This document shows, in pieces, positions 5,046 through 39,028 of a DNA stretch of 39,452 nucleotides (the stretch's first letter is position 1; the number at the start of each line of letters is the position of its first letter). The notes beneath the pieces were generated by a model that was not told where the DNA came from, did no database searches, and saw only the letters and a list, made by a program, of their open reading frames with translations. The stretch spans positions 1 through 39,452 of the IMG/VR virus record IMGVR_UViG_3300035698_002849, one strand, 5' to 3'. A program made the position numbers and the translations under genes. The DNA is from a virus.

Positions 5046-5287
5046 TGTATTATTATTAGTCTAAGGACTGCTACAATAATAACAGTACCAACGGTGCTGA
5101 TCGATACCCAAACAAACTTCTCAACCCACTTGGCAGCATACCTTTCCGGTAAGTCGTCTATCTTGTCATTAAGATTTTTGAATTGTGCATTTATTGACGT
5201 TTCTAATTTTCCCACGCTTTTATTTACCTCTTGCATTTGAGTTTTTAATACTGCTATTTCTATTTTTTCGTTTTTGATTTGATTCAT
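5042..5287 (-). CDS. XhlA-like holin-associated membrane protein
   Basis: This 81-residue protein starts with a coiled coil (about residues 5-45, EIAVLKTQMQEVNKSVGKLE) and ends in one hydrophobic transmembrane helix (about 58-79, FVWVSISTVGTVIIVAVLRL). That arrangement is seen in XhlA-type proteins, which act with holins at the inner membrane to release endolysin. Some phages use it alone as a small holin. It sits between the LamG adhesin and the nozzle gene, away from the main holin at 35.4-35.6 kb, so lysis functions are split. A purely structural membrane-contact role at the tail cannot be excluded. Confidence 0.6.
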   Translation of the reverse strand: MNQIKNEKIEIAVLKTQMQEVNKSVGKLETSINAQFKNLNDKIDDLPERYAAKWVEKFVWVSISTVGTVIIVAVLRLIIIQ

Positions 5288-16426: not shown

Positions 16427-16456
16427 ATTATAATGAATTAATTAATCGGTTGTCAA
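16427..16456 (-). promoter_or_regulatory. Late promoter P5 (sigma70 consensus)
   Basis: On the minus strand a perfect -35 TTGACA (16451-16456) and a perfect -10 TATAAT (16427-16432) are separated by 18 bases, in the 108-base gap between the staple-like and scaffold genes. Unlike the early promoters, it lacks the GCRAC-NN-GTYGC palindrome. A 12-codon reading frame (16381-16419, MNALSFYGAANK) starts almost at the predicted start site and might be a leader peptide, though chance is likely. The promoter would drive scaffold, capsid and downstream virion genes. Confidence 0.75.
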
Positions 16457-25837: not shown

Positions 25838-27361
25838 TTATTCTTCCATTAAATGCTTAGGCGTTTCTACAATCATACCAGTTGTTGTCACCAATAGCGA
25901 TGCGATTGACACGGCGCTTTCAATCTGAGCCTTTAAAACATTTGCCGGGTCCATTACTCCAACTCTTTGCCATTGACCAATCTCTCCTGTTACAACATTA
26001 ATTGCTTGATCATCTTTAATTTCTTGATCATCATCCATTCCAACGTTTTTCAATAATTGGCTAAATGGTACTTTCAATGCTTTATTAAGGATTTCGCTAC
26101 TAGTCTCAATCCTTGATAATGCTACTCCGGCACCGGCAACTACTCCGCCCTTAAATGCTGAGTGTGTTGCATTGATTGCATCTTCGACTTTATATTTTAG
26201 TGCCTTTTCTTCGCTCTCTGTAGCAGCACCAACTTTAATAACTCCAACTCTATTTGTGAACCTTGCGATCCTCTTTTTAAGTTTGAGCACGACATTTTTA
26301 TCTGCTGATTGAGCAATAGCTTTTATTAAATCATCTACTACCAATTTAACATCTGCCTTTTTTCCTCTTGGCCCTACAATTACAGATTCCTTTTCTCGAC
26401 AGATAAATCTATCGGCTCTGCCTAGATCAGCGATGGTTGCATCTTCAAGCCTATCACCTTTGGTCTCACTGCATAATTTACCACCAGTCATAAGCGCCAT
26501 ATCTTCTAATGCTTGAGTCCTGTCTCCATCAATGTCCGGGGTACTAATAGCAATTCCAATAAACTTGCCTTGCATTTTGTTTACCACTAATGTCGATAGT
26601 GCTGTCTGTTCAACATTTTCAGCAACGATTATTAAACTGTTAATCTTCTTGGCTGCAAGCTTTTCCATTATTCCAATAACATCTTTTGCCTCTGTTAGCC
26701 GGTAGTCGGTGAATAAAATATAAGGTTTTTCAATCACAGCTTCCATCCTCTGGCCATCAGTTACCATGTATGGACTTATATATCCTCTCTCAATAGTTAT
26801 TCCCTCTTTTAATTCTGAGAATGTTTCCATTGTCCCTGATCGATCAACTGTTAATGCACCATCTACTCCTAAATCAAACCATGCATTTGCTATTAACTTT
26901 GCGACTTCTTCATCGTCAAAACTAACTAGCGCAACCTTTAATAATTCTTCTCTACTCTTAACTGGCTTTGCCTGAGAATTAATAAATGCCTCACATTCTT
27001 CTAATCCTTTTTTAAGTTCTTTTTCAATTTTACGTCCATCTTTTACTCCCTTAGATACCTCATTAATAATTGCTTGTAAAATAATAAGCGCTCCGGTAGT
27101 ACCATCTCCAACTCGATCGTTAGTTCTAATGGCAGTTTCTCTAACAACTTTTAACACTGCATTTTCAGCAGCATCTTCTAGCTCTAGATCGCGCGCTATT
27201 TGAACACCATCATCTAAGACGTGTCCATGAGTTAATTTACTGATAATAACCTTATTTCCTGCCGGGCCAAATGTTGGCTTGATAAGGTCAACTGTTTTAT
27301 CTACGGCCGATTTGATAACATCAAATGTGTTATTTTGTATAACTTTTACTTTTTCTGACAT
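25838..27361 (-). CDS. groEL: Phage-encoded GroEL chaperonin
   Basis: The protein has 507 residues, shorter than the ~545 of bacterial GroEL, and lacks the C-terminal Gly-Gly-Met tail (it ends KHLMEE). ATP-site motifs align along the chain: TFGPAGNKV (30-38), DDGVQIARD (D51), VGDGTTG (D86), KVEDAINATHSAFKGGVVAG (D394) and MDPANV (D471). The last Thr of the usual GDGTTT is Gly. The apical domain is recognisable (RGYISPYMVTDGQRMEAVIE, SLIIVAENVEQTALSTLVVN). The usual APGFGD loop reads TPDIDGDR. It folds proteins in a double-ring chamber capped by GroES, whose gene lies just upstream. Capsid or tail proteins are the likely clients. Confidence 0.92.
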   Translation of the reverse strand: MSEKVKVIQNNTFDVIKSAVDKTVDLIKPTFGPAGNKVIISKLTHGHVLDDGVQIARDLELEDAAENAVLKVVRETAIRTNDRVGDGTTGALIILQAIINEVSKGVKDGRKIEKELKKGLEECEAFINSQAKPVKSREELLKVALVSFDDEEVAKLIANAWFDLGVDGALTVDRSGTMETFSELKEGITIERGYISPYMVTDGQRMEAVIEKPYILFTDYRLTEAKDVIGIMEKLAAKKINSLIIVAENVEQTALSTLVVNKMQGKFIGIAISTPDIDGDRTQALEDMALMTGGKLCSETKGDRLEDATIADLGRADRFICREKESVIVGPRGKKADVKLVVDDLIKAIAQSADKNVVLKLKKRIARFTNRVGVIKVGAATESEEKALKYKVEDAINATHSAFKGGVVAGAGVALSRIETSSEILNKALKVPFSQLLKNVGMDDDQEIKDDQAINVVTGEIGQWQRVGVMDPANVLKAQIESAVSIASLLVTTTGMIVETPKHLMEE

Positions 27362-27362
27362 A

Positions 27363-27638
27363 TTAATTTAATTTAATTATTGTTTTTTCAGGGTGATACA
27401 ATTTCATATACACCCGTTTTGTTGATCCAAAGTCTTGAGCGAATTGTCGAACGTGATCCCTAAGATAGTTTGAATTATCTACTCTACCCTTATACCCCTT
27501 ATTCCATCTGAATGTCTTACCACATAATTTACACTTTTCTATTATTTTGGCGGGGCTTTCTCCTATTTTCGCCATGTCATGAGGTTGGCCGAACCTACAA
27601 CCGAACCTGGTGCCATAACGTATTGGTCTATCTATCAT
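27363..27638 (-). CDS. Zinc-motif protein between groES and groEL
   Basis: The protein has 91 residues. GCRFGQPHDMAKIGESPAKI (~13-32) and IEKCKLCGKTFRWNKGYKG supply Cys/His pairs (C14, H20, C36, C39) for a zinc site. The rest is basic and helical (NSNYLRDHVRQFAQDFGSTK). The GroES stop and this start overlap as ATGA, and its stop is two bases before the GroEL start. All three are therefore likely co-translated. Its place in the middle of a chaperonin operon is unusual. Whether it works with the chaperonin or is a passenger cannot be read. Confidence 0.6.
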   Translation of the reverse strand: MIDRPIRYGTRFGCRFGQPHDMAKIGESPAKIIEKCKLCGKTFRWNKGYKGRVDNSNYLRDHVRQFAQDFGSTKRVYMKLYHPEKTIIKLN

Positions 27639-27916
27639 TTTAAGAATGCAATTATATCTTCCTCTAGGATCAGTTTGTATTCGACTTTTTTGCCCTTTTC
27701 TTCTCTATCAATTTGTTCTCCCGAATAAGTTCCATAAACAACCTCGTCACCCTTTTCAATGTCGGGGACATCAGCGCCGACCTCTTGAACAATTCCAAAT
27801 GCTTTTTGTTCTGTTTCTTCTTGTGCCGGTAAAATAATTCCATGCTCGGTTTCGTGTGACTCTCTTGGGGTTGGTTTTACTAATACCCAAAGTCCTCGTG
27901 GTATAATTTTTTTCAT
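27635..27916 (-). CDS. groES: Phage-encoded GroES co-chaperonin
   Basis: The protein has 93 residues, normal GroES length. It starts IIPRGLWVLVKPTPRESHET, has the mobile-loop hydrophobic motif EHGIILPAQ (G26-I27-I28-L29, which contacts GroEL), then FGIVQEVGADVPDIEKGDEV, a roof/dome region, and ends EDIIAFLK. The beta-barrel pattern is clear. It would cap the GroEL chamber encoded downstream. It overlaps the zinc-motif gene by four bases. Confidence 0.9.
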   Translation of the reverse strand: MKKIIPRGLWVLVKPTPRESHETEHGIILPAQEETEQKAFGIVQEVGADVPDIEKGDEVVYGTYSGEQIDREEKGKKVEYKLILEEDIIAFLK

Positions 27917-27920
27917 AATT

Positions 27921-28166
27921 TTATTGTAGTTCAGAGATAGGAGTATCTCGTCCTGCTCTCTTGTTTTTTTTAATTATCTCTTTTCTTGCTATGGTAGCCT
28001 CATCCTCTGGCAATATGATAACCCCTTTTGGTTTAGGGCCAGCGTTTACCATTTTGGTTTCTATTATTTTTATTCTCTTTTCAATCCCTGCCCTAAAAAA
28101 TGCAAGGATTAAAAATACTAATATAGATGTTAAGAGTCCTAAAATGTAGCCAAGGATAAGGTCCAT
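27921..28166 (-). CDS. Small single-pass membrane protein
   Basis: This 81-residue protein has one N-terminal transmembrane helix (MDLILGYILGLLTSILVFLI, residues ~3-24). A basic helix follows (RAGIEKRIKIIETKM), then a cytoplasmic tail with PKPKGVIILPEDEATIARKE and KNKRAGRDTPISELQ. It precedes GroES by four bases. Such proteins in early phage operons are often lysis-related or host-takeover factors. I do not recognise the family. Confidence 0.5.
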   Translation of the reverse strand: MDLILGYILGLLTSILVFLILAFFRAGIEKRIKIIETKMVNAGPKPKGVIILPEDEATIARKEIIKKNKRAGRDTPISELQ

Positions 28167-28170
28167 AAAT

Positions 28171-28443
28171 TTATGCTTCTGGGTTTTCTAATTTTGGTGC
28201 TACTGGTTCCTCTTTTGGCGCTTCCTTTGGTGCTTCTTTTCCTCTCATACTAACGATGATTGGATCTGCTGCAACCAATCCATTTGGTAAAATTTTAGCT
28301 AGGGCAGATAGTCCTAATTCATATTTACCAAGTAATGGCCTTAACTCGCCATTAAAACCGTCAATTCTTTCCTCCAAATCCTTTTCCACTGGTGGTTGGA
28401 CTGGCGGTGTAGTTGCCGGTTGTTTTGGTGTTTGTTCTGACAT
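28171..28443 (-). CDS. Hypothetical protein with Pro/Ala/Lys tail
   Basis: The protein has 90 residues. A Pro/Thr-rich start (SEQTPKQPATTPPVQPPVEK) is followed by a compact helical core (ERIDGFNGELRPLLGKYELG then LSALAKILPNGLVAADPIIV). The C-terminal tail carries the tandem KEAPKEAPKEEPVAPK. No motif is recognised. It lies between the KGG-like and membrane-protein genes of the P4 operon. Confidence 0.45.
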   Translation of the reverse strand: MSEQTPKQPATTPPVQPPVEKDLEERIDGFNGELRPLLGKYELGLSALAKILPNGLVAADPIIVSMRGKEAPKEAPKEEPVAPKLENPEA

Positions 28444-28468
28444 AATTGTTTTTGATTATTTAATTATT

Positions 28469-28633
28469 TTATTCCTTAGTTTTATTCCATCTTTTTTCAG
28501 CTCCCTTTTTTCCAATAGCACTCATATATTTTGAACCTTTCTTTTTAAATGTAGCTTGACCTCCTCTACGACCAACCAGAGCATAAGCTTCTCGCTCTAC
28601 TTTTGACAATTTCTTTGTTTTTTTATCACTCAT
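28469..28633 (-). CDS. KGG-like small basic protein
   Basis: From the ATG at 28633 the protein has 54 residues: MSDKKTKKLSKVEREAYALV, GRRGGQATFKKKGSKYMSAI and GKKGAEKRWNKTKE. The pattern G-(R/K)-(R/K)-G-G-Q-A-T-x-K-K-x-G resembles KGG repeats of bacterial stress proteins, but with only about two units. Its highly basic character suggests nucleic-acid binding. A start at 28705 would add 24 residues of untypical composition, so I prefer the shorter form. It is the first gene behind promoter P4. Confidence 0.55.
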   Translation of the reverse strand: MSDKKTKKLSKVEREAYALVGRRGGQATFKKKGSKYMSAIGKKGAEKRWNKTKE

Positions 28634-28908
28634 AATTTTATTAATTTTCCGGAGGCTACTAAGATCTGCGGGATTTGGTTCTGACCGACAAGTACAGTTG
28701 GTCATATCAATGCAGTTCCTGCTTTGTGATACTTATGCTTTCCTCTTAAATGCATTTATCTTTTTTCTGCCGAAGCGTACTTATTTTTTTCATCTCGGAG
28801 GTTGGCATTTTTTCTTACTCACGATTCCTGCCACCCACGCGTTGTACTATACTCTTACAGTAGGGCTACCTACTGGATCTTAGCAACATTCGACAACCTA
28901 ATATATTT
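28634..28908 (-). promoter_or_regulatory. Long 5' leader of the P4 operon
   Basis: About 270 bases separate P4 from the first gene, long for this compact phage. A perfect hairpin (CAGTAGG/CCTACTG, 28858-28875) lies near the 5' end. Short open frames occur further down (MPTSEMKKISTLRQKKDKCI, then MHLRGKHKYHKAGTALI), but none is convincing. The leader could hold an RNA control element or a short unannotated peptide. No known riboswitch is recognised. Confidence 0.4.
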
Positions 28909-28937
28909 ATTATAGCAACCTGTCGCAACATTGTAAA
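28909..28937 (-). promoter_or_regulatory. Promoter P4 with palindromic operator (chaperonin operon)
   Basis: Minus strand: -35 TTTACA (28932-28937), 17-base spacer, -10 TATAAT (28909-28914), with an extended TGC before the -10. The spacer contains the palindrome read on the plus strand as GCAACCTGTCGC (28915-28926), shared with P1-P3. A protein bound here would block polymerase between -35 and -10. Confidence 0.75.
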
Positions 28938-28959
28938 CATATTAATTGTGGATATCTTT

Positions 28960-29439
28960 TTATACCCCGATTGGTTCAAGGCCATAATTTTCAGTAGGAG
29001 GTGCTTGTATTCCAGTCTCAGCCTCTATGTCCATAATATACTGGCCAAAACCTCCTTTACTTAGGCCGGTGGTACTTTTTACTATTCTTACCTTTTGGCC
29101 TAAGACTTCAACAATTGACTCTGTCAAAAACTTTCCTTTAAATAATGTATGTAATCGATCTAAATTTCGCTCTCCTGTTTCTAATGCGATCAGAGGGAGA
29201 TAAACACCCCAATAGTATCTATTCTGCTGTTCTGTACGTTTTGGTTTTTTATTACTTATTGTGATCAAAACCTGTTCATCACCTTTAAACTTATTCAGTT
29301 TATGTTGGTAATAGATCTGGCTTTGAAACACTAACAAATTATTCACGTTATCAACAGACTTTATAACTTTACCGGCAAAGCTCTGAGTAATGGTTACATG
29401 CTCGATAACGTCATCATCTTTTTTCCGTACTGATCGCAT
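28960..29439 (-). CDS. NinB-like recombination protein
   Basis: The protein has 159 residues. Its features match NinB/Orf-type phage proteins that bind single-stranded DNA and assist recombination. They are KKPKRTEQQNRYYWGVYLPL (~64-83), ERNLDRLHTLFKGKFLTESI, STTGLSKGGFGQYIMDIEAE (~122-141) and TGIQAPPTENY. The N-terminal ~60 residues form a beta-rich domain. It fits functionally with ERF, the PD-(D/E)XK nuclease, SSB and RusA in the same half of the genome. It ends just before P4. Confidence 0.7.
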   Translation of the reverse strand: MRSVRKKDDDVIEHVTITQSFAGKVIKSVDNVNNLLVFQSQIYYQHKLNKFKGDEQVLITISNKKPKRTEQQNRYYWGVYLPLIALETGERNLDRLHTLFKGKFLTESIVEVLGQKVRIVKSTTGLSKGGFGQYIMDIEAETGIQAPPTENYGLEPIGV

Positions 29440-29453
29440 ATTATTGAAAATTA

Positions 29454-29792
29454 TTATGAAGTTGCTCCTTGAGCAGCCGTTACACCCTCCTTTGGTGCTT
29501 CATCATTAGTTTCTGTTTCTGCTGGTACTTCCTCAGCAGGAGTTTCTTCGGCTGGGGTTTCTTCCTTAGCTTCTTCGTCTTGCTCTGCTGGGGCTTCTTC
29601 CTCAGCTGTTTCCTCTGATGCTACATCTAACGGTTCGCTGTCAGTAGCTTCGTCAACAACTTCCTCTGATGTTTCTGGATTAACAGACTCATCCTTAACT
29701 TCTTCTTTAACTACTGGTTTTGAACCGCATCTTACACAAACTTCTTCGCCTGGGTTCATTACGTGGCCATTGCCACAAATTACTTCTGTCAT
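29454..29792 (-). CDS. Zinc-knuckle protein with acidic low-complexity tail
   Basis: The protein has 112 residues. ICGNGHVMNPGEEVCVRCGS (residues 5-24) is a short zinc-ribbon start. The remaining ~85 residues are Glu/Ala/Pro repeats (EETPAEETPAEEVPAETET), almost certainly disordered and strongly acidic. An acidic tail can mimic DNA and bind host nucleic-acid enzymes, a known anti-host strategy, but this is only a guess here. It is the first gene after P3. Confidence 0.5.
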   Translation of the reverse strand: MTEVICGNGHVMNPGEEVCVRCGSKPVVKEEVKDESVNPETSEEVVDEATDSEPLDVASEETAEEEAPAEQDEEAKEETPAEETPAEEVPAETETNDEAPKEGVTAAQGATS

Positions 29793-29887
29793 TTTTTTTA
29801 GGTTATTTTTTTAAATCCAATTAACAAATTATTATTTTCTCATTTAGTTTTTTTTATTTATTAAATTATCAACTACTATGTAACTTA

Positions 29888-29916
29888 ATTATAGCAACCT
29901 GTCGGTAAGCTGTCAA
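29888..29916 (-). promoter_or_regulatory. Promoter P3 with palindromic operator
   Basis: Minus strand: perfect TTGACA (29911-29916), 17 bases, perfect TATAAT (29888-29893), with extended TGC before the -10. The -35 overlaps the RusA stop codon. The spacer holds GCAACCTGTCGG (29894-29905, plus-strand reading), one base from the palindrome seen in the other early promoters. It drives the acidic zinc-knuckle gene and the NinB-like gene. Confidence 0.8.
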
Positions 29917-30239
29917 ATCGTATATGGGGATATCTCAAATTCTACAAATTCTTTTCCTACCTCTACTAACTTCTTTACAACATGCCACTCGTATATAATT
30001 TTGTCATTAAAGCCATACTTGTTTGCGACTGCGTCTTGGAATGCCTTGATGCAGTTGTCTCCATCCGATGCTTCTGATATACCAAAGATGTATTCTACCG
30101 ACAACTTTCCGGCGGGTACGCTGATCCTTGGGAGCAGGAAGAACAAATCTTTTTTGTACTGTTTAAGATCTGCGGTAGCAAATCTTCTCCCGGTGTACGC
30201 TTTGTTAACACTCAATGGCTTTATTTGCAGGCACTCCAT
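29913..30239 (-). CDS. RusA-like Holliday junction resolvase
   Basis: The protein has 108 residues. It shows IKPLSVNKAYTGRRFATADL at the start, ASDGDNCIKAFQDAVANKYG (D59, D61, K65, D69) and FNDKIIYEWHVVKKL (D79), the acidic and lysine pattern of RusA endonucleases. It would cut four-way junctions that arise from recombination-dependent replication or before packaging. The start lies within the last 35 bases of the HNH-like gene, so the two are coupled. The conserved N-terminus requires this overlapping start. Confidence 0.85.
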   Translation of the reverse strand: MECLQIKPLSVNKAYTGRRFATADLKQYKKDLFFLLPRISVPAGKLSVEYIFGISEASDGDNCIKAFQDAVANKYGFNDKIIYEWHVVKKLVEVGKEFVEFEISPYTI

Positions 30240-30573
30240 ATTTATTGTTTAGGTATCTTTTAACCTGTCTATAATCAACGGCCTTGCTAATTCTGTCTAA
30301 TTCTTGATGAGTGGCTCGGTTTAGCGCGATCCATTGATTGATTTCCTTGTCAAGCTTGCCTCCTCGATGAACGAGCCAACAAATTGGTATTATCGCCCAT
30401 TTCTCTTGTAGTTGTTTGCCTTTGAATATAATGGAATGTTCCCACTCTATAAGTTTACCACTCATAGGATCTGGCGCGCAAATGTGATCTCTTAATAAAA
30501 CTGCCCTCATGCATCTTTTGTATTTTGGGTCAAGTGACATTTCTTCCCTAAGCTTAACTGGTATTTTATTCAT
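30205..30573 (-). CDS. HNH-like putative nuclease
   Basis: The protein has 122 residues. KLIEWEHSIIFKGKQLQEKW (E45-H46) and IIPICWLVHRGGKLDKEINQ (H69) with LNRATHQ (N85) give an H...N...H-like arrangement seen in small phage HNH recombination nucleases. CAPDPMSGK before the first His is also typical. It sits in a recombination cluster with RusA. Without structure modelling the catalytic set is uncertain. Confidence 0.6.
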   Translation of the reverse strand: MNKIPVKLREEMSLDPKYKRCMRAVLLRDHICAPDPMSGKLIEWEHSIIFKGKQLQEKWAIIPICWLVHRGGKLDKEINQWIALNRATHQELDRISKAVDYRQVKRYLNNKYGVPANKAIEC

Positions 30574-31012
30574 AGACTTCGATTTTTACTGTTATCAATC
30601 CAGGGCCAAGTGGAGATAATTGTTCAAATGCGTGGCTTGAAAGATCTAAAATTCTCTCTTTACATGGACCCATCAGTATTTGTTCTAGCTCTGTCCAGTC
30701 CTCACATTTTTTTGGTCCATAATCATTAACCCTGCATATTACATTACCTTTTTTATAACTAACTTTTAGCATTGTGCCTTTGGGGTATTTTCTGCTAGCA
30801 CAAGTATCGTTGATTTGGCTATAACATGGTCCATAAAAACCTCTGCATTGTTGATCTTCATGATCCAATGAATAATCATACCAACTAGCTATCCCATAAT
30901 CAAATACTGGTCTTAGCCGGTATTCTAATTTATTAACGTCTATATCCGGTACTCTTATACATAAAATTGCTACTGCTGATAAAATTGCACATGTTATTAA
31001 TGTCCTCCACAT
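30566..31012 (-). CDS. RlpA-like double-psi beta-barrel protein
   Basis: The protein has 148 residues. An N-terminal hydrophobic segment (residues ~2-20) could be a signal or anchor. Residues ~38-146 match RlpA: YGIASWYDYSLDHEDQQCRG, DTCASRKYPKGTMLKVSYKK, CRVNDYGPK (D97) and ERILDLSSHAFEQLSPLG (D123). RlpA enzymes cleave peptidoglycan lacking stem peptides. Some relatives only bind. Six cysteines in the exported part suggest disulfides, which fits extracytoplasmic function. Finding it inside the replication/recombination operon is unusual. It could alter the cell wall early in infection or aid lysis. Confidence 0.7.
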   Translation of the reverse strand: MWRTLITCAILSAVAILCIRVPDIDVNKLEYRLRPVFDYGIASWYDYSLDHEDQQCRGFYGPCYSQINDTCASRKYPKGTMLKVSYKKGNVICRVNDYGPKKCEDWTELEQILMGPCKERILDLSSHAFEQLSPLGPGLITVKIEVYE

Positions 31013-31024
31013 AATTTTATTTTA

Positions 31025-31114
31025 TTAATCTTCTTCTTCGTCCTCGATTGGTTGCTCAAAATTTTCCGGCCGATACCACTTCTCTATTTCTTGATCGTAA
31101 TTAATGTTTTCCAT
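31025..31114 (-). CDS. Tiny acidic protein (29 aa)
   Basis: From the ATG at 31114, eleven bases after the preceding stop, the frame encodes MENINYDQEIEKWYRPENFE followed by QPIEDEEED. A longer start at 31213 would overlap the previous gene extensively. It is strongly acidic at the C-terminus. Coding status is uncertain because of length, but the spacing fits the tight gene packing. Confidence 0.35.
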   Translation of the reverse strand: MENINYDQEIEKWYRPENFEQPIEDEEED

Positions 31115-31124
31115 TTGCCAATGT

Positions 31125-31571
31125 TTATTGATTAAATAATGTATCTTCTTGTGCTTTTTCTCCGGCAAATTCTTCCCTTTGTTTATAAGACTCTTGGTCA
31201 AAATCGAATACAAACATTAAATTACGTTTACCTGTGTGTGTTTTCCAAGCCTCATGATAATCCGGGAGAACTTCACTTGCCATTACTGCTACTGGATGCA
31301 TTACTCCCAACTTACCATTTATAAAATCTATTCCTATCTGTGTTGGCACCCATCCATTTTTTAAGTGAAGTGCTAAATCAAAATAAGTAAGATGACAGAA
31401 ATTAGTATATTGGCTGTTACTTATTCCAAGGCTTCCAAGTGATACTGGCTTTCCATATGCCTGGTATCTATCAACTAGCTTTCTTAATGCCTTAACTTTT
31501 CCGGCATTTAATTGTTGAATGTAGGCCGTTATTACATGGCCACAACATTCGCATTTGTTTGAATACTTCAT
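31125..31571 (-). CDS. Zinc-knuckle phage protein of unknown function
   Basis: The protein has 148 residues. CECCGHVITAYIQQLNAGKV (~7-26) gives a Cys pair, then KALRKLVDRYQAYGKPVSLG, GISNSQYTNFCHLTYFDLAL (a winged-helix-like stretch), GWVPTQIGIDFINGKLGVMH and DYHEAWKTHTGK. I recall similar proteins in replication modules of phages, but no assigned function. It probably binds DNA and follows the replisome organiser by seven bases. Confidence 0.55.
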   Translation of the reverse strand: MKYSNKCECCGHVITAYIQQLNAGKVKALRKLVDRYQAYGKPVSLGSLGISNSQYTNFCHLTYFDLALHLKNGWVPTQIGIDFINGKLGVMHPVAVMASEVLPDYHEAWKTHTGKRNLMFVFDFDQESYKQREEFAGEKAQEDTLFNQ

Positions 31572-31578
31572 GTTTTTT

Positions 31579-32403
31579 TTATAAGTTTTTTAATTCCGGG
31601 TAATAGTGGAGATCAACTATTGCATTTGGATTTGCTTTTGGTGTCCATTTACCAAACCTTTTTACTGCTATTGATCCATCATGTAGTGTTACCTCAATTA
31701 TTTTATCTTTTTTATCAGATGGTGGTAAAACATCGTCATTCCACCTCTCTTGATTTAACCATGTAGTCGGGTGAGGGACAAAAGCGCCATTATCCTTGGT
31801 CCATTGATCGCTTTTTTTATACTCCTCTAACGATTTTGCTATTAAATCGAACATCTTTTGATCTGGATTAATTTTTTTCCAGGTTTTTTCTGCTGTTTTT
31901 CTGCTAACCTTTCTAGGGTAAAGGTTCCAAAACATTTCGAATAATTTATAATCCACGACCATCTTCTTTTTACCTAACCTAACCTTACCTAACCTAACCT
32001 GTGGTGTCCGTGGACAGTCCGTGGACAGTCCAGATATTCGTTTATTATTGTTTTTAACATCAGATCTAGGCTTTGGTTCGATTGTTTTAACCCCGGCACT
32101 ATCCAATAATGGCTTATATATGCTATTTATCTTCCTATCTGATCTAATAACATTATGCTCATTCCAGTCTGTTATAAAACATACTTGATCCTCATTTAAT
32201 TGTTCTATAAAGTTTTTTGCCACTAAAACCTTAATAACGTCATCTTGTACTCCAAGCATTTTAATTATTGGGTAGGCCTCTACTACTCCATCATCGTCTG
32301 CCCTCATTCCTAAATGGAAGTAAAGCATTTGACTTTCAGATGGCATCATTAGAAACCTTGCACTATTTATTATTCTGTTTGAGAACATTCTACGATTAGC
32401 CAT
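31579..32403 (-). CDS. Replication initiator / replisome organiser
   Basis: The protein has 274 residues. The N-terminal ~110 residues resemble the phage replisome-organiser winged helix (MANRRMFSNRIINSARFLMM, DDDGVVEAYPIIKMLGVQDD, VIKVLVAKNFIEQLNEDQVC). A variable linker contains VRLGKVRLGKKK. The C-terminal part has FWNLYPRKVSRKTAEKTWKK and NGAFVPHPTTWLNQERWNDD, a common helicase-loading type ending. It would bind an origin and recruit host helicase. The linker DNA itself contains an iteron-like array that may be that origin. It is the first gene from P2. Confidence 0.75.
   Translation of the reverse strand: MANRRMFSNRIINSARFLMMPSESQMLYFHLGMRADDDGVVEAYPIIKMLGVQDDVIKVLVAKNFIEQLNEDQVCFITDWNEHNVIRSDRKINSIYKPLLDSAGVKTIEPKPRSDVKNNNKRISGLSTDCPRTPQVRLGKVRLGKKKMVVDYKLFEMFWNLYPRKVSRKTAEKTWKKINPDQKMFDLIAKSLEEYKKSDQWTKDNGAFVPHPTTWLNQERWNDDVLPPSDKKDKIIEVTLHDGSIAVKRFGKWTPKANPNAIVDLHYYPELKNL
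31973..32031. other. Candidate replication origin (iteron-like array)
   Basis: Inside the initiator gene, plus-strand 31973-32000 holds five or six tandem CCTAA/CCTTA-type units. Next to it, 32001-32031 has GTGGACAGTCC twice, containing the palindrome GGACNGTCC, plus a partial third copy. The protein linker these encode (VRLGKVRLGK) is low complexity, suggesting the DNA, not the peptide, is selected. Origins inside initiator genes are known in many phages, as in lambda O. Confidence 0.55.
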
Positions 32404-32417
32404 ATGTTTTTAATTTA

Positions 32418-32446
32418 ATTATAGCGACCTGTTGCCTAATTGTCCA
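32418..32446 (-). promoter_or_regulatory. Promoter P2 with palindromic operator
   Basis: Minus strand: -35 TGGACA (32441-32446), 17 bases, perfect TATAAT (32418-32423). The spacer has the palindrome GCGACCTGTTGC (32424-32435, plus reading). The -35 falls inside the 3' arm of a long hairpin (32440-32476). It drives the replication operon. Confidence 0.75.
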
Positions 32447-32476
32447 ATGGCTACCTGGATGGCAACCAATGGACAA
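32440..32476 (-). other. 16-bp hairpin overlapping the P2 -35
   Basis: Between the SSB stop and P2, TTGTCCATTGGTTGCC pairs with GGTAGCCATTGGACAA around a five-base loop. There is one mismatch near the middle and two G-U pairs in RNA. No U-tract follows, so termination would be weak. As RNA it may be a processing or 3'-end stabilising site for the upstream mRNA. As DNA it places the -35 in a strong inverted repeat. Confidence 0.65.
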
Positions 32477-32486
32477 CATTATTTTA

Positions 32487-32960
32487 CTAAAATGGTATAT
32501 CTTCCATTTTAATTTCTTCTTCTCCCGGGACAGGGGCAAACTGATCTGGTTGTTCAGCCGGAGGTGTCTGTGCTACTGGTGTTGGATCTGGTTGACTAGC
32601 CTCTGGCGCTGCCTGTTCTTGATCCTTAGGTTTAGCTCCAAATTGGAATGACTCTGCAATTACCTCTGTCCGATACTTTTTAGCTCCACCATCAGTTGGT
32701 TCCCAACTTCTTGTCTGTATTCTTCCCTCTATGAGTATTTGACTTCCTTTTCTCATGTATTGAGCGATCGTGTCTGCCATTTTAGAGAACACAACTATAT
32801 TATGGAATTCGGTCGCGGTTTGTTTTTGACCAGACTGTTTGTCATTCCATGTTCTGTTTGTGGCTATTGAGAAGTTACACACGCTATTGCCGTTAGGCAT
32901 TGTTTTTAGTTCCGGGTCTCTTGTTAGGTTTCCGACCAGGATTGCTTTGTTTAAATTCAT
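32487..32960 (-). CDS. ssb: Single-stranded DNA-binding protein
   Basis: The protein has 157 residues. The OB-fold domain (residues 1-~105) is classical: MNLNKAILVGNLTRDPELKT, VCNFSIATNRTW, EFHNIVVFSKMADTIAQYMR and KGSQILIEGRIQTRSWE. A Pro/Gln/Ala linker leads to the acidic tip MEDIPF that recruits host replication and repair proteins. It protects single strands during replication and ERF-mediated annealing. It ends the P1 operon. Confidence 0.95.
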   Translation of the reverse strand: MNLNKAILVGNLTRDPELKTMPNGNSVCNFSIATNRTWNDKQSGQKQTATEFHNIVVFSKMADTIAQYMRKGSQILIEGRIQTRSWEPTDGGAKKYRTEVIAESFQFGAKPKDQEQAAPEASQPDPTPVAQTPPAEQPDQFAPVPGEEEIKMEDIPF

Positions 32961-32993
32961 TTTATCATGTTATTTATAATAACGATTTGTTAC

Positions 32994-33650
32994 TTATAGT
33001 AACTCTCGCTCGCACAGAGCCTTGATCCCGGCCCATGCTTCCTTTGCCCTTGTGGTCATTTTTATTATATCAACCATATTTCTGGTGGTTGGTATCCTAT
33101 AAACGTTCCCGGTTGGCCTCATTTTGCCGTCTGGTGAGTATTCAGTCTCTACGTGGATTAATTCTATATCCTTTGGTATAAACCCCTTAGCTAACCATAT
33201 GGCCATAGAATAGAACGTTATTTGACCACTATCGTTGACCATTTTTTGAGTCCATGGTCTCACACTTGTTTTATCTTCCTTAAAGGCTGTGTAATCTGAT
33301 TTGGCGGTGTCTGGTATTGCTAGGATTGGAATGTCGCCACCCTTATTCTTTAACACCGGTATCCATACAATTCTTACATTGCCATCTCGATTCCACTTAA
33401 ACTTAAATCCCTTTTTATCTTCAACGTGCAGATCCATCCGCCTAAATTTTGGGATCTTCGCCATCATGAGGTCGAGCAGGGGATCGCCGGTTGCTTCCCC
33501 TGTCTCAAGCCCATTAGCCATTCTTGAACCATAGATCATATTTTTACTGATCCATTGTTTCTTACCACGTACATACTGGTCAAGGAAGCGCTCCTCTGAC
33601 TGTTCAAATGTGGTCATTTGGCTAAAACTTAGGTATGGTCGTGGCCTCAC
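32994..33650 (-). CDS. PD-(D/E)XK nuclease (RecB/Cas4-like)
   Basis: The protein has 218 residues. It starts with a GTG overlapping the ERF stop as GTGA. An ATG start further in would lose the conserved YLSFSQMTTFEQSEERFLDQ beginning. The active-site region reads AIPDTAKSDYTAFKEDKTS (D114, E125, K127), with Q143 in SGQITFYSMA, as in RecB-type nucleases. Next to the annealing protein, it is the likely exonuclease partner that makes single-stranded ends for recombination. Confidence 0.8.
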   Translation of the reverse strand: MRPRPYLSFSQMTTFEQSEERFLDQYVRGKKQWISKNMIYGSRMANGLETGEATGDPLLDLMMAKIPKFRRMDLHVEDKKGFKFKWNRDGNVRIVWIPVLKNKGGDIPILAIPDTAKSDYTAFKEDKTSVRPWTQKMVNDSGQITFYSMAIWLAKGFIPKDIELIHVETEYSPDGKMRPTGNVYRIPTTRNMVDIIKMTTRAKEAWAGIKALCERELL

Positions 33651-34429
33651 TTCTTTTGTGGTTTAAGTTTCATTAGTTTTGCATTTACCAGATTAGTAAA
33701 TTCTGTAATTTGTGCTGTGGTGTACTTTTTAGATCCGGTTATCTTTGACTTGTATTCCTCGAGTTCTTTTGCCGTGCAAGTATTGATTGCTTTCTTTAGC
33801 ATCTCAAACCCCTTAGCCGGAGTAACAGCAGGTTTTGCCGGTGGAGCATCAACTTTTTGTGCATCATTATCATCATCTCCTGTCATGATTCCAAATGCGT
33901 TGCAGAATGCATATCTCTTAGCAAATGTTAACCTTGCGCCGTATTTTTGAACCTCACTCATATACTCCTCACTTCCTATTGGTACAGAAAATTGGCTACT
34001 TTCGGAGTGTCCGGCTGTATGTTTAACAGCACATACTACTGTTAAGAGTTTTTCGTCTTGTTGTACATTTATACTGTATGATAGTCCATACTTGGCTATA
34101 TACACCTTAACCTGGCTGACGATCCTATCTAGAGTGGCATATTTATACCTCTCTTTTCCGCCTTTGTCATTAACTATCTTTTTCTTTTCGATCACCGGGC
34201 ATTCTTCTTGGAAATTTGCCATTGATGCATCAAACAGTTCTTTTGCCTTTTCTGCTCTCAATTCCTTTCTCATTGCTAATAGTTTTTCAACAGTCTCCAT
34301 CGGAGTGCCTTGCTGGATCGCCTGGGCTATTAGTACCTCTGCTTGGTTTGCGCTAGGCATTGTCTGAATAGCGCCTGGCTTTTGGATGTCTTTAGCAACC
34401 AAAGCCTTTGTCTCTTTTTTCTTTGCCAT
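33647..34429 (-). CDS. erf: ERF-family single-strand annealing protein
   Basis: The protein has 260 residues. The ERF core (about residues 55-195) is clear: KAKELFDASMANFQEECPVI, ERYKYATLDRIVSQVKVYIA, KYGLSYSINVQQDEKLLTVV, CAVKHTAGHSESSQFSVPIG, YMSEVQKYGARLTFAKRYAF and CNAFGIMTGDDDNDA. It pairs complementary single strands and supports circularisation or recombination of phage DNA. A helical C-terminal domain (about 210-260) follows a Pro/Ala linker. It is paired with the nuclease gene by a four-base overlap. Confidence 0.9.
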   Translation of the reverse strand: MAKKKETKALVAKDIQKPGAIQTMPSANQAEVLIAQAIQQGTPMETVEKLLAMRKELRAEKAKELFDASMANFQEECPVIEKKKIVNDKGGKERYKYATLDRIVSQVKVYIAKYGLSYSINVQQDEKLLTVVCAVKHTAGHSESSQFSVPIGSEEYMSEVQKYGARLTFAKRYAFCNAFGIMTGDDDNDAQKVDAPPAKPAVTPAKGFEMLKKAINTCTAKELEEYKSKITGSKKYTTAQITEFTNLVNAKLMKLKPQKK

Positions 34430-34444
34430 ATAACTTTTGATTAT

Positions 34445-35029
34445 TTATCTTGCTGCGATTGATTCTTCCTCATATACCTCGACTCCTGGTATACTTTTAC
34501 CTCCTAGAGCATCTCTCCTTATTGAGACCATGTCAGGGGTGAGGTATTCTCTTGGGAGTTTACTCTCGTCAGTGATTCTCACTTTTCTCACTTTTCTCAC
34601 TTGGACCTGGCCGACATCTCCGTGGGTTGTTGATTCTACTCGCTCAACCTTATCCATCTTTTTTTCTGCCGTCTCGAGTTTTATGTTTCCATCCTCTAAA
34701 CTCTTGGCGATCTTAGCCTCCCTTTTGGATGCTGCCTCATTTACTTTTCTATTGTAGTCAAGCAATTTTGTTTTGACTATCATTTCAGCTGCCTTAAATT
34801 GATCCTCGATTGGCTTATACTTTGATCTTGTTTCCTTTAGGATTGCGTTAGCTGGTTTTGTTATTTTTTCTTTTTCAGCTTTTATTGCAGATCCTGTTTC
34901 CTTAAGCCTACTGACGATATCAATTGCTGCCTTGTAGTCATCTTGACTTTCGATTATGATTGTGTTGGCCTGGGTTTCTAACTTTGATACCCGGCTTTTT
35001 AATACAACCACCTCTTTGTTGTTCTCCAT
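34445..35029 (-). CDS. Coiled-coil protein of the recombination operon
   Basis: The 194-residue protein is mostly helical: VVVLKSRVSKLETQANTIII, ESQDDYKAAIDIVSRLKETG, SAIKAEKEKITKPANAILKE and KREAKIAKSLEDGNIKLETA. A short basic repeat VQVRKVRKVRITDESKL comes near the C-terminus, then LPREYLTPDMVSIRRDALGG. It has the look of Gp157-type proteins often found before phage annealing proteins. The role is unclear, perhaps modulating recombination. Confidence 0.6.
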   Translation of the reverse strand: MENNKEVVVLKSRVSKLETQANTIIIESQDDYKAAIDIVSRLKETGSAIKAEKEKITKPANAILKETRSKYKPIEDQFKAAEMIVKTKLLDYNRKVNEAASKREAKIAKSLEDGNIKLETAEKKMDKVERVESTTHGDVGQVQVRKVRKVRITDESKLPREYLTPDMVSIRRDALGGKSIPGVEVYEEESIAAR

Positions 35030-35031
35030 GT

Positions 35032-35199
35032 TTAACTTATTAAATTAATAAAAAACTCGGCCTGTATTCTCCAAAATGGAGACCAGTACCCAGTTTGACC
35101 CTCGTATGCTAGTTGTGCGATTGATGTCATTAGGATCATAACATCAAACATGATTAGTGCCACGATCACGTAGTAAATGTTTGTTAATGCTTTTCTCAT
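35032..35199 (-). CDS. Small early membrane protein (55 aa)
   Basis: I choose the ATG at 35199 because an upstream ATG at 35286 lies before the P1 -10. The product (MRKALTNIYYVIVALIMFDV, then MILMTSIAQLAYEGQTGYWS) has one transmembrane helix at about residues 8-30. It is the first gene of the earliest-looking operon, so a host-takeover or exclusion role is plausible. No family is recognised. Confidence 0.5.
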   Translation of the reverse strand: MRKALTNIYYVIVALIMFDVMILMTSIAQLAYEGQTGYWSPFWRIQAEFFINLIS

Positions 35200-35256
35200 G
35201 GTATTATTGTTTGTCTGGTTAATTAGTGTTTGTTTCTTTCGACCTTTGTTACTATT

Positions 35257-35285
35257 ATTATATAGCAACGGGTCGCTATTGTCCA
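35257..35285 (-). promoter_or_regulatory. Promoter P1 with palindromic operator
   Basis: Minus strand: -35 TGGACA (35280-35285), 17 bases, TATAAT (35257-35262). The palindrome GCAACGGGTCGC (35265-35276, plus reading) lies in the spacer, shifted by two bases compared with P2-P4. It faces away from the lysis block and starts the recombination operon. Confidence 0.75.
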
Positions 35286-35314
35286 CCCCTACAACTGGGG
35301 ATAACTTTTTTACT

Positions 35315-35346
35315 AAAAAAGAGAGGGGGAGCTACCCACTCTCTCA
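35315..35346 (-). terminator. Intrinsic terminator after the lysis/internal-protein block
   Basis: On the minus strand AGAGAG, a mismatch and GGG pair with CCC, a mismatch and CTCTCT around a five-base loop (TAGCT), followed at once by six T. It separates the holin gene from P1. It is the only strong intrinsic terminator I found, so most of the genome is likely read by long transcripts. Confidence 0.85.
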
Positions 35347-35379
35347 ATTAACAAATGGACAAGTTACACCGGACCACCG

Positions 35380-35640
35380 TTATTTTTTTGGAGAAAATGC
35401 CATAACAACATTTTTACTTCCAGACCATAATCCAGATGAAGCTAGGCCAATAATAATTCCTTGAGCGATCATTGCCTGCCATGCTATTCCGGTAAGGGCT
35501 ACTAAACAGATTCCAATAACAATAGACAATAGTGGCGCGTATTCTTTTGGCAACCCGGTTAATTTAATTGCTGCGACAAGACCTAATGCTAAAGGGATCG
35601 CACCAATAACTAGTGGGCTGAATGCAAATAGTGATTCCAT
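35380..35640 (-). CDS. Holin
   Basis: This 86-residue membrane protein has about three hydrophobic segments: LVIGAIPLALGLVAAIKLTG (~10-29), PLLSIVIGICLVALTGI (~36-52) and AQGIIIGLASSGLWSG (~59-74). A short basic tail (KK at the end) follows. LPKEYAPLLSIVIGI and the Gln-Gly-Ile-Ile-Ile-Gly-Leu pattern are familiar from phage holins. It would perforate the inner membrane at the programmed time. It is the last gene before the terminator and follows the papain-like peptidase by twelve bases. Confidence 0.8.
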   Translation of the reverse strand: MESLFAFSPLVIGAIPLALGLVAAIKLTGLPKEYAPLLSIVIGICLVALTGIAWQAMIAQGIIIGLASSGLWSGSKNVVMAFSPKK

Positions 35641-35652
35641 CTTTTTATTTTA

Positions 35653-36672
35653 TTAATTATTATATCCACCAATTGGATAACTTATTTTTTCTGCTGGTAT
35701 GTCATCAAGAACTTCAACATTTATTTTTGACCATGCTCCACCAAATAAATCCAAGGCAAACCTCTCATATGCGATGGGGTGGAATTTACCATCATAGCTG
35801 ACCACATAAACTGTGCTGCTATCTTGGGTTTTTACTAATCTTGTCATATCTTCAATTAATTTATTAGGTTTGTCCATTAATGTCCACGGATTAAACATGT
35901 GGCCAGACTCAAAATAATCTTCTCTAATTTTTTGCCAACCATCTGGATGTAGTTTATCGCTTGGCCGTTCGTCCCAGCTATTTGGAGTTGATATATATTT
36001 ACCAAGCTCGTCAATACCGGCCTTTCCAAAGTATATACAATGGCTCCATTTTAGCTCTGTAGGGGGTTTTGGCTCATTTGTGGACCAAGATGCATTATTC
36101 TCTCCATTAAGCCCAGAAACGACACCGTGGTTGTCCCTGATGGCTCTGGCGTATAGCTCCATGTTTAGTCTGGCAACAATTGATCGGTATTCTTTGGCTT
36201 GTAATACTTTTGCTAATTTATCCATGTCCGGAGTCATCCACTCTTTACTCTGCATAAATTCTTCCGTTGGTGGGTTTCCGTTGTCATAACTAGTTAAGAT
36301 CCTTTCAAATAATGATCCCCAATTAACAATCAGTTTACCACCCTCTCTAATATAAGCACCTCCACTTGGAGTTCCTAATGTAATTTGAGAATAAATAGCC
36401 TTAGCTGATGCTTCGTCATATTCGCCAATTTCAACTGCATTTAATACCCCAACATAATAAGCCCAACCTTGACCAACACACGATCCTGATCTTCCTTGAT
36501 TCTTTATTGGTATTTTTATGTTTAATTCTTTTTCAACATCATATCCTTTTTCCCAATCAAACTCATCATTGCCCATCAAAATTTGATCGGCTATAAGATC
36601 TCGGTTATCGTCTGGTTGGAGTAAAGCACCTGTACCAAATTTACCATCTACTAATTTTATTTCTTCTTCCAT
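35653..36672 (-). CDS. Papain-like (C1 family) cysteine peptidase
   Basis: From the ATG at 36672 (339 residues) a C1-type site is visible: IKNQGRSGSCVGQGWAYYVG (Q59, C65), WSHCIYFGKAG (H211) and STPNSWDERPSD (N231), in correct order. An upstream TTG is less likely to be the start. No signal peptide is seen. It lies between the ejection-protein and holin genes, so it may be carried in the virion, process internal proteins or act on host proteins. C1 peptidases are uncommon in phages. Substrate is unknown. Confidence 0.75.
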   Translation of the reverse strand: MEEEIKLVDGKFGTGALLQPDDNRDLIADQILMGNDEFDWEKGYDVEKELNIKIPIKNQGRSGSCVGQGWAYYVGVLNAVEIGEYDEASAKAIYSQITLGTPSGGAYIREGGKLIVNWGSLFERILTSYDNGNPPTEEFMQSKEWMTPDMDKLAKVLQAKEYRSIVARLNMELYARAIRDNHGVVSGLNGENNASWSTNEPKPPTELKWSHCIYFGKAGIDELGKYISTPNSWDERPSDKLHPDGWQKIREDYFESGHMFNPWTLMDKPNKLIEDMTRLVKTQDSSTVYVVSYDGKFHPIAYERFALDLFGGAWSKINVEVLDDIPAEKISYPIGGYNN

Positions 36673-36673
36673 A

Positions 36674-39028
36674 TTATTTTCCAAAGTTTGTTTTACCTTT
36701 AGCCTTATTGAATATATCTATCAGTTGATCTTTTGTTTTTATTATTGACTTATCCCAAACTTGATACTGTGTTGGATTTAATTCATCCTCATATGACCAC
36801 TTAGCTCCAGCATAACCCTCTTTTTTTAATTGTTTTTCTGCAATGTCTTGAGGTATTTTATACTCCATGTTTGGATCTGCAGTATTATATGCATTTTCTA
36901 TTTTATTCTTTACATTTGGAGTCAATAATCCTTTTTCTTCTATATAGTCATAACTACTACTCCCTTTATATAATTTAGAATCATCTATATATGCTTCTTT
37001 TCTTATTTTCCCATAGCTCGAATCAGCCCCCTCTGGTATTGTCCAAAATTTTCCCTCTTTTCCAGTATCAGTAAACTGTGCTATTTTTTCCTTACTATTA
37101 ATAAATTCATTTGAAGTTTTATACTTTTTAGTTTCTTCAACTAAGTCATCTCCTACATTTAGTTTAATTTTTTTTTTAGGAGTGAATGCTGATGGAGTAA
37201 CTTTTTTTGCTGGTATCAATTCCTCAATAAATTCTTTTAATGCTTTTTGTCTAACTTCCGGGGTTTCAGCAAATGATCCAGTCAATGCATCAAATGCCCT
37301 TGCCGGTAGGTCACCAGTCTTTGTTGGTACAGATGATTTTATAATTCCCTTTAAGCTGGTTTTTCCTGAGATATCATAATACTTGTCTAATATATTATAG
37401 ACATCTTGTAAATCTCCCAAATTGCTTAATGTCTCACCTTTCAGAACCTTGTCGATATCTGTTAGTATTTTTCTTAACTTAACCCCGGAGACTGAATTAC
37501 CAGTTAATCTTCTACTCAATAATCCTGCTAGCATGTTTCCTATTTCTTCATCAGCTCCATCAGCTCCTTTCATCATTTTTCTTAGATCCATTAATGGATT
37601 AGCTATTTTTGCATATTCTTTATTGAGTGCTTTATATGCTGGATTTTTTGTATCTAAAACATCAGACAGTCCTTGCCTAACGGCATTGTATGCCCTCTCC
37701 TGCGTTCCGGTTATGTTAGCAAGTGATTTCTTTTTTCCACCAAGGATCTCAAAAATTTCTTGTCTTAATTTATGCTTTTGTGATCCACTACCTCCTTTAA
37801 TCGATTGTTGGAATATACTCTCTATCGCTTTTCTATCGCTTAACGTTTCCTTAGTTGTTAATACTGTATTTTTAAAATTAAGTTTTCCATTCTTTATTTC
37901 TAATCCGCTTATTTCTTTTTTAAGTTTATTAAAAACACTATCGTTTAATTCTTCTCTTGAAACAGTACCAAGGTCTTGCGCAATGTCACCAAGTTTTTGA
38001 CCAACAGTACCACGTTTTTTTTCTAATGTTTTTAGTGCCTTTGTTATTGGTTTTCCAACAACCTCCTCTGGCCTTACTTTTGAAACACCACTTGAAAAAT
38101 CCTCTGCTGACTTCAATAATTCTTTTACTGCTGGCTTTGTTTTATTTTGTACTCTCAATAGTGTATTTACATCTTGAACGTCAACACCAAGTCTTGCTGT
38201 CTTTTGGGCAGTTTTTGTTGGTAGTTGATTTATCGCACGATTGGATGATTTTTTCGTAGCTATATTTGTTGTTACTTTTTCTTTAATAGCAGCGGCCTTA
38301 CCAAATGTTGTCGGTATCGTTTCATCTACTATGTTTTTTGTTACTGACTTTACTTTAGTTGCCGCCTTTTTAGCACCGAATACTGTTTTTTGGACACCTT
38401 TTGAGACTGCTGGGATCGCTCCACCAATAGTACCACCAGCTAATGCACCAATTGCCCCGCTCTTAACAACATCTCCAACGCTTGAGTCTTTTTCTTGAAG
38501 TCCCATACCAATCCCTCCAAGACCACCCTCAACGGCACCTTGAATCGCACCAACTTTCATTGCTTGTAAAACTGCTTGCCTACCAAATAGTTTTGTGGCC
38601 CCGACCATGGTTCCACCTCCGGCAAAGTATGATCCTATCTCAAGACCTACGCCGACCGCTTCTTTTGCAGTCTTAACTGGTTCAACTTGACCAAATCCAG
38701 GGACATTAATTCCCTCTGTGACATCTTTGGCTCTACCAATAAATCTCTGTTCTTCTTCTTCTGTTAATTCTCCACCAGATAATCTGTCTATTGCTAAACC
38801 CCCAAGAGCACCGGCTCCCTTTACTGACTCAATTCCAGAGACTCCGGCTTTGACAAATGGTTCAATAACACTTTTACCAAATCCTTTTATTTTTTCAAAT
38901 GTGCTAGTTTTTTTCTGTGGCTCTATTGATGCTAGAAATTCATCACTACTAATAGAAACGTCTTTACTACTAGACGGTTGTTTAGATTTATATTTGTCTG
39001 CTATTTTTAGTTGTTCTGCTGTTAGCAT
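36674..39028 (-). CDS. Internal virion (ejection) protein candidate with possible ADP-ribosyltransferase-like C-terminus
   Basis: I choose the ATG at 39028 (784 residues, MLTAEQLKIADKY), four bases after the transglycosylase stop. A longer start at 39166 would overlap that gene by 134 bases. Residues ~50-220 are Gly/Ala-rich with amphipathic hydrophobic helices (GAGALGGLAIDRLSGGELTE, SGAIGALAGGTIGGAIPAVS), typical of ejected proteins that line the DNA channel. A long helical middle follows. The last ~150 residues (KYKTSNEFINSKE, then GKFWTIPEGADSSYGKIRKE, LKKEGYAGAKWSYEDELNPT and TKDQLIDIFNKA) recall ART domains of phage polyvalent proteins. The usual first His/Arg strand is not clear, so activity is uncertain. 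Confidence 0.65.
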   Translation of the reverse strand: MLTAEQLKIADKYKSKQPSSSKDVSISSDEFLASIEPQKKTSTFEKIKGFGKSVIEPFVKAGVSGIESVKGAGALGGLAIDRLSGGELTEEEEQRFIGRAKDVTEGINVPGFGQVEPVKTAKEAVGVGLEIGSYFAGGGTMVGATKLFGRQAVLQAMKVGAIQGAVEGGLGGIGMGLQEKDSSVGDVVKSGAIGALAGGTIGGAIPAVSKGVQKTVFGAKKAATKVKSVTKNIVDETIPTTFGKAAAIKEKVTTNIATKKSSNRAINQLPTKTAQKTARLGVDVQDVNTLLRVQNKTKPAVKELLKSAEDFSSGVSKVRPEEVVGKPITKALKTLEKKRGTVGQKLGDIAQDLGTVSREELNDSVFNKLKKEISGLEIKNGKLNFKNTVLTTKETLSDRKAIESIFQQSIKGGSGSQKHKLRQEIFEILGGKKKSLANITGTQERAYNAVRQGLSDVLDTKNPAYKALNKEYAKIANPLMDLRKMMKGADGADEEIGNMLAGLLSRRLTGNSVSGVKLRKILTDIDKVLKGETLSNLGDLQDVYNILDKYYDISGKTSLKGIIKSSVPTKTGDLPARAFDALTGSFAETPEVRQKALKEFIEELIPAKKVTPSAFTPKKKIKLNVGDDLVEETKKYKTSNEFINSKEKIAQFTDTGKEGKFWTIPEGADSSYGKIRKEAYIDDSKLYKGSSSYDYIEEKGLLTPNVKNKIENAYNTADPNMEYKIPQDIAEKQLKKEGYAGAKWSYEDELNPTQYQVWDKSIIKTKDQLIDIFNKAKGKTNFGK

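Follow-up and report, generated by a model that had tools for sequence, protein, structure and literature searches.

The viral sequence analysed here, IMG/VR record IMGVR_UViG_3300035698_002849 in its full length of 39,452 nucleotides (hereafter the window), is a complete phage with a 127-bp direct terminal repeat, and a short dyad with the form GCRAC-NN-GTYGC lies in the spacer of each of four strong sigma70-type promoters on its minus strand, designated P1 to P4. With a probability that we put at roughly one half, these promoters, host-like in their design, contain in their spacers an operator to which a dimeric repressor, probably encoded by the phage, would bind and thereby shut down the early operons together, whereby gene content and gene order suggest the designation of the four operons as early. 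The association of promoters and dyad, first noticed in a preliminary description of this DNA, is confirmed and is somewhat larger than had been claimed.

All four promoters, P4 (35257..35285, TGGACA-17-TATAAT), P3 (32418..32446, TGGACA-17-TATAAT), P2 (29888..29916, with a perfect TTGACA-17-TATAAT) and P1 (28909..28937, TTTACA-17-TATAAT), stand ahead of early operons with 11-12 of 12 matches to the sigma70 hexamers at a spacing of 17 bp, and an independent promoter scan returned them as the only sites scoring at least 10/12 within 27500-36800, so that coordinates, boxes and spacings had been described exactly. Read on the plus strand, the dyad is GCAACGGGTCGC in P4 (35265..35276), GCGACCTGTTGC in P3 (32424..32435) and GCAACCTGTCGC in P1 (28915..28926), all with exact arms, and GCAACCTGTCGG with one arm mismatch in P2 (29894..29905), as had been reported; it adjoins the -10 box in three promoters and is 2 bp off in P4. 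At up to one mismatch, GCRACNNGTYGC occurs five times in the window against 1.21 copies expected, with four copies inside P1-P4 and the fifth, one mismatch away, in coding DNA at 17685, the single equal match outside promoters where many would have spoken against an operator. Equally, five sites in the window score at least 11/12 as promoters and four of them have CRANNNNTYG in the spacer, a pattern found in 4 of 405 such sites (about 1%) in 200 dinucleotide shuffles. As the motif was read off P1-P4 themselves, the independent tests are provided by the relatives. The late promoter (16427..16456, minus strand, TTGACA-18-TATAAT) served as a negative control and has neither dyad nor DnaA box, in agreement with the earlier statement that it lacks the palindrome.

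Relatives that share the gene order of the window carry the dyad at the corresponding operons. In G339 all four counterparts contain it (CCGACGGCTTGG, CCAACGGCTTGG, CCGACAGCTTGG and again CCAACGGCTTGG), and G015, G018, G022, G029, G702, L066, L194, L195 and L198 have it at one or more orthologous promoters. Dyad-bearing orthologs of P4 were found in G339, G018, G022, G029, G015 and G702; counterparts of P3 in G339 (7589), G015 (1528) and L195; of P2 in G339, G341, G702, L194 and L198; and of P1 in G339, G015, G018, L066, L040 and G702. Throughout 15 genomes or contigs including the window, the core dyad followed by a -10 box was counted 29 times on coding strands and 4 times on the opposite strand with 1.1 expected. 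The dyad core is kept over large divergence while its bases drift, and a loss of the palindrome from conserved promoters, proposed earlier as grounds for abandoning the idea, was not observed.

The same findings bear on the very improbable reading that one promoter was duplicated within the phage, leaving, by chance or shared ancestry, a dyad without function. Sites of the same phage do resemble each other more than the sites of other phages; on the other hand, flanks and leaders of P1-P4 are mutually unrelated, the core persists among distant relatives, and a pattern scan of DNA blind to protein information picked out the family. This pattern, TTATCCAC-N8-24-CRASNNSTYG-N0-4-TATAAT, was run over 2.9 million viral contigs of IMG/VR and retrieved 16 stretches, of which 14 encode homologs of proteins of this phage, whereby the pattern had been framed on relatives already known and some of the 16 stretches come from those contigs, others being new. 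Other scans were less selective. Besides the family member L013, exact 17-mer matches in IMG/VR are mostly coding and several fall in a repeat reading NNSTGCYNTG, so they were not taken as evidence; equally, most out-of-family matches to TTGACA, dyad and TATAAT without the upstream box described below are boxless and look like chance or other phages, among them an array in L144/G342 that belongs to a different phage type.

The form of the dyad provides an indication of how it might be read. Among 51 collected sites, pair 2-11 is always C-G, pair 4-9 is A-T in 45 and pair 5-8 is C..C in 28, G..G in 8 and symmetric in 9. As C..C and G..G are one site read from two strands, the dyad is used in both orientations, and its distance to the -10 box varies between 0 and 2 bp across the family; both features are as expected for a protein that binds by itself and not for a fixed contact of RNA polymerase. 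The family consensus SCRACNGCTYGS is a pseudo-palindrome, while the form in this phage is GCRACAGGTYGC; the perfectly symmetric GCRAC/GTYGC version is mainly found in the lineage of the window, where the dyad has become symmetric. A dyad that overlaps the core promoter and is repeated at co-regulated promoters is the arrangement of an operator, with symmetry being partial outside this lineage.

A function of the dyad as a part of the promoter, namely a motif in the spacer or an extended -10 that is touched by RNA polymerase, or by an alternative sigma subunit, and strengthens the early promoters, has been considered and is judged improbable. As in extended -10 promoters, a TGN ahead of the -10 box is provided by the right arm, namely in two of P1-P4 and in numerous relatives. 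Besides orientation and variable distance, however, the dyad is located well upstream of the -10 box in G016 and G027, and host promoters of the same layout as well as the perfect late promoter do without it. Equally, binding of an activator that switches the early promoters on seems quite improbable: the additional upstream element is typical of activated promoters, but -35 and -10 boxes are near consensus with optimal 17-bp spacing, and a site touching the -10 box normally represses. Activators of the MerR kind that bind in the spacer need a spacer of 19-20 bp; with 17 bp in all four promoters, no such over-long spacer is present.

Which organism makes the regulator has been approached by scanning Patescibacteria chromosomes for the dyad in promoter context, which gave 18 matches versus 13 control matches in 286 genomes, 1 versus 2 in 380 genomes and 2 versus 1 in 384 genomes. 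At this chance level, the motif is considered phage-specific. One of the two matches in the 384-genome scan lies on the phage contig L256 (G109:C27) with unrelated structural genes, where TTATCCAC, TTGACA, GCAACCGCTTGC and TATACT precede an open reading frame of 82 amino acids at about 5236-5283. That a host-encoded regulator reads the dyad, so that early transcription of the phage depends on the state of the host such as stress or growth phase, or is silenced by the host, is a doubtful reading. It would accommodate that no universal phage-encoded repressor was found in the family and that L256, a contig of an unrelated phage binned with a Parcubacteria genome, repeats both the site and its promoter layout. 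It fits poorly with the control-level occurrence of the dyad in promoters of Patescibacteria, as host regulators usually have their own targets and often their own promoter among them, and with the host lexA promoters, which carry GAACNNNNGTTC or other repeats instead. Host LexA as the reader, and with it an SOS box, was rejected on the latter ground. The layout of the Parcubacteria LexA boxes is identical, with DnaA box, -35, spacer operator and -10; in the lexA-region promoters of G096 and G067 (reverse box), the spacer contains GAACGCTCGTTC or GAACGAGCGTTC, and a DnaA box is found further upstream. The word differs, being GAACNNNNGTTC in the host and CRACNNGTYG or CRACNGCTYG in the phages. 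Since the host already uses the spacer-operator layout with another word, a phage-encoded repressor is favoured. Of the preliminary proposal of a coordinated switch operated by either a phage repressor or a host regulator, the switch at the early promoters is therefore well supported by phage specificity and recurrence at orthologous promoters, whereas the host half has found little support.

Several observations weigh against a phage-encoded repressor binding a symmetric operator. In many copies of the 12-mer, pairs 5-8 and 3-10 are non-complementary, and no compensatory covariation in the dyad was detected beyond column composition (permutation p 0.84), so that the symmetry rests on the consensus and the use of both orientations. 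L256, as a Parcubacteria phage with unrelated structural genes and the same site, is equally compatible with a reader from the host or a common module. No recognisable helix-turn-helix repressor is found among the proteins common to all relatives examined; the family-universal proteins are structural, recombination and chaperonin-operon products. The small basic GRRGG-type protein encoded by the first gene after P1 (28469..28705, minus strand), a weak candidate for the reader that is found in all relatives with the P1 region available, has no Pfam, PDB or fold match, including to any DNA-binding family. With genes on one strand and neither an integrase nor a divergent repressor seen among the genes scanned, a classical lysogeny switch of the lambda type is not indicated.

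Among individual candidates for the reader, the GRRGG protein was set aside, as its model is a two-helix hairpin, no fold matched and no residue was seen to follow the operator word. The zinc protein at 31125 gave an unusable model (predicted local distance difference test score, pLDDT, of 59) and is absent from relatives that keep the operator. Among the zinc-ribbon proteins of the window, only the one between GroES and GroEL occurs in all operator-bearing relatives; nearly all relatives have a small conserved cysteine/histidine protein between their GroES-like and GroEL-like genes (27363-27638 in the window). A methyltransferase site was considered for the Dcm-like enzyme apparently encoded by the phage, but full dyads are located only at promoters.

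A second element, missed in the preliminary description, is the DnaA-box-like sequence GTTATCCACA about 38-43 bp upstream of the -10 box. Between the end of WTATCCMC, which is the sequence of the DnaA box, and the -10 box, the gap is most often 30-35 nt, with 34 cases on the coding strand and none on the opposite strand. TTATNCACA or a close sequence is present in many relatives, and near-matches in the window, all on the minus strand, accompany P4 (TTATCCCCA, 35296..35304), P2 (ATATCCCCA, 29925..29933) and P1 (ATATCCACA, 28947..28955), while the degenerate GCCATCCAGG of P3 (32454..32463) matches GTTATCCACA at 6 of 10 positions, under the scan threshold. The layout GTTATCCAC-N26-34-TATAAT was identified in 94 of 188 Parcubacteria genomes versus 3 matches of the reversed control pattern, and in the host genome G096 pairs of TTATCCACA and TTATCAACA flank dnaA, as expected of DnaA boxes at dnaA/oriC. 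The frequency of the layout together with the box pairs at dnaA indicates a host promoter feature common to the phage, and GTTATCCACA at a fixed distance upstream of the -10 box is a candidate for a general promoter rule in Parcubacteria. Judging from our reading of the translations, the host genes behind such promoters probably include pilin, MscS-like, mraZ and greA genes; examples are L246:8577, L212, L204 and L237:14104, including a lexA-region promoter.

DnaA is known as an activator or repressor of transcription (PMC8203912), and TTATCCACA upstream of a promoter resembles the cases reviewed there. They differ in that the box considered here occupies a fixed distance from the -10 box in many Parcubacteria host and phage promoters, with the binding of DnaA being putative. 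It is possible, though on balance doubtful, that parcubacterial DnaA, or a protein sharing its box, acts upstream of strongly expressed genes in general as a promoter factor, and that phages copy this architecture, tie their early transcription to the replication state of the cell and override it by a phage-specific spacer operator whose reader belongs to a protein family not yet described.

For the favoured reading of a phage-encoded repressor, the following course of events is proposed. P1-P4 are built like strong Parcubacteria host promoters, with a DnaA-box-like element (degenerate at P3), -35 box, 17-bp spacer and -10 box, and the phage lineage would have placed a pseudo-palindromic operator of 10-12 bp into each spacer. 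The promoters with their upstream element, the dyad, its return at orthologous promoters and its restriction to phages are directly visible in the sequences. We infer that all four sites are bound by a regulator that acts as a dimer and is most likely a phage product; located beside the -10 box, it would exclude RNA polymerase. The recombination, replication-loader, NinB and chaperonin operons might thereby be repressed jointly, either once the early phase is over or while the phage is quiescent.

Known systems show partial likeness. In lambda-type phages, CI and Cro act on several operators per divergent promoter pair, and genes for an integrase and a repressor are present. The overlap of early promoters with pseudo-palindromic sites is shared with this system, while the divergent pair, integrase and repressor were not seen here. 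The stoperators of Cluster A mycobacteriophages are many, asymmetric and mostly outside promoters, and stop elongation. Unlike these, the full sites in the window are all located in promoters; a short genome-wide site whose repeat drifts between phages is, however, a common trait, as its reading by one phage repressor would be (PMC9283540, PMC6550527). In Aca-type repression, a small phage-borne regulator acts on an inverted repeat in a strong phage core promoter and blocks RNA polymerase there (PMC9410906), as is proposed for the dyad. Aca controls its own acr-aca operon (PMC9410906), whereas here one site is found at four or more early operons without a helix-turn-helix gene alongside, and no match to an aca helix-turn-helix family of Pfam or PHROG was obtained among the early genes scanned. 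Functionally, the dyad system thus seems to resemble the logic of Aca and of Cluster A without showing the defining features of either.

How transcription is controlled in Patescibacteria and their phages is almost entirely unexplored, and no paper that brings together Patescibacteria and DnaA boxes or promoter motifs was found in the literature searched. The 12-mer operator words, for example GCGACAGGTTGC and CCGACCGCTTGG, are a short and cheap probe for finding the regulator, while the DNA pattern of the dyad can serve as a marker to recognise these phages in metagenomes without a protein search. Equally, the upstream DnaA-box element makes a general Parcubacteria promoter rule testable in vitro.

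The assignment of the host relies on the terminase, for which relatives were found in 56 IMG/VR loci and in two contigs binned with Jorgensenbacteria and Nealsonbacteria genomes, so the host is probably a member of the Parcubacteria, within the ultra-small Patescibacteria, although phage contigs may end up in the wrong genome bin. The window has a G+C content of 38%, Shine-Dalgarno sequences are largely absent and the substantial open reading frames are all on the minus strand. Domain and family matching identified Erf, SSB, a DnaD-like loader, a NinB/Orf protein and Cpn10, with a weak RusA-like match in addition; no viral relatives were found with the DnaD-like loader as a protein query. P4 is followed by 35032-35199, an exonuclease-associated gene (34445), Erf (33647), a nuclease-like gene (32994) and SSB (32487), whereas P3 precedes the DnaD-like helicase loader (31579-32403). 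Downstream of P2 are a zinc-ribbon/acidic protein (29454-29792) and NinB/Orf (28960-29439), and downstream of P1 the small basic GRRGG protein, GroES and GroEL, the latter being a predicted GroEL-like protein of 507 amino acids (25838-27361). The P2 promoter drives a very acidic low-complexity protein in several phages (29454-29792 in the window; L194, L141, L148:3450-3842), in some with an N-terminal zinc ribbon; this protein may act by mimicking DNA or by binding RNA polymerase. In the relative G030 (L090), two strong promoters (10784 and 12873, minus strand) share another spacer word, ATTGATAAYAG, perhaps another operator.

The leaders of the transcripts contain additional elements. The P1 leader (28706..28908, minus strand) is positionally homologous to a covarying structured RNA in relatives, which comprises about 165 nt with a long closing stem and two-sided changes in 18 of 27 pairs. 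In the aligned P1 leaders (L057:193-355, L086:13811-13980, L040:1990-2158, L094:5947-6100 and L044:1528-1690), covariation was 0.521 versus 0.280 in shuffled and 0.14-0.21 in slid alignments. The fold of the L057 leader has a z score of -5.5, the window's own fold is weak, and no Rfam family matched the RNA. The P4 leader equally has a conserved sequence, AAAGGTCGAA (35238..35247, minus strand), present as such or in a close form in the P4/P0 leaders of G339, G018, G022, G702 and G029, and as AGGTCGAT in G015; it is located shortly past the predicted P4 transcript start, with a shift of 60-90 nt downstream in G029 and in the P0 leaders.

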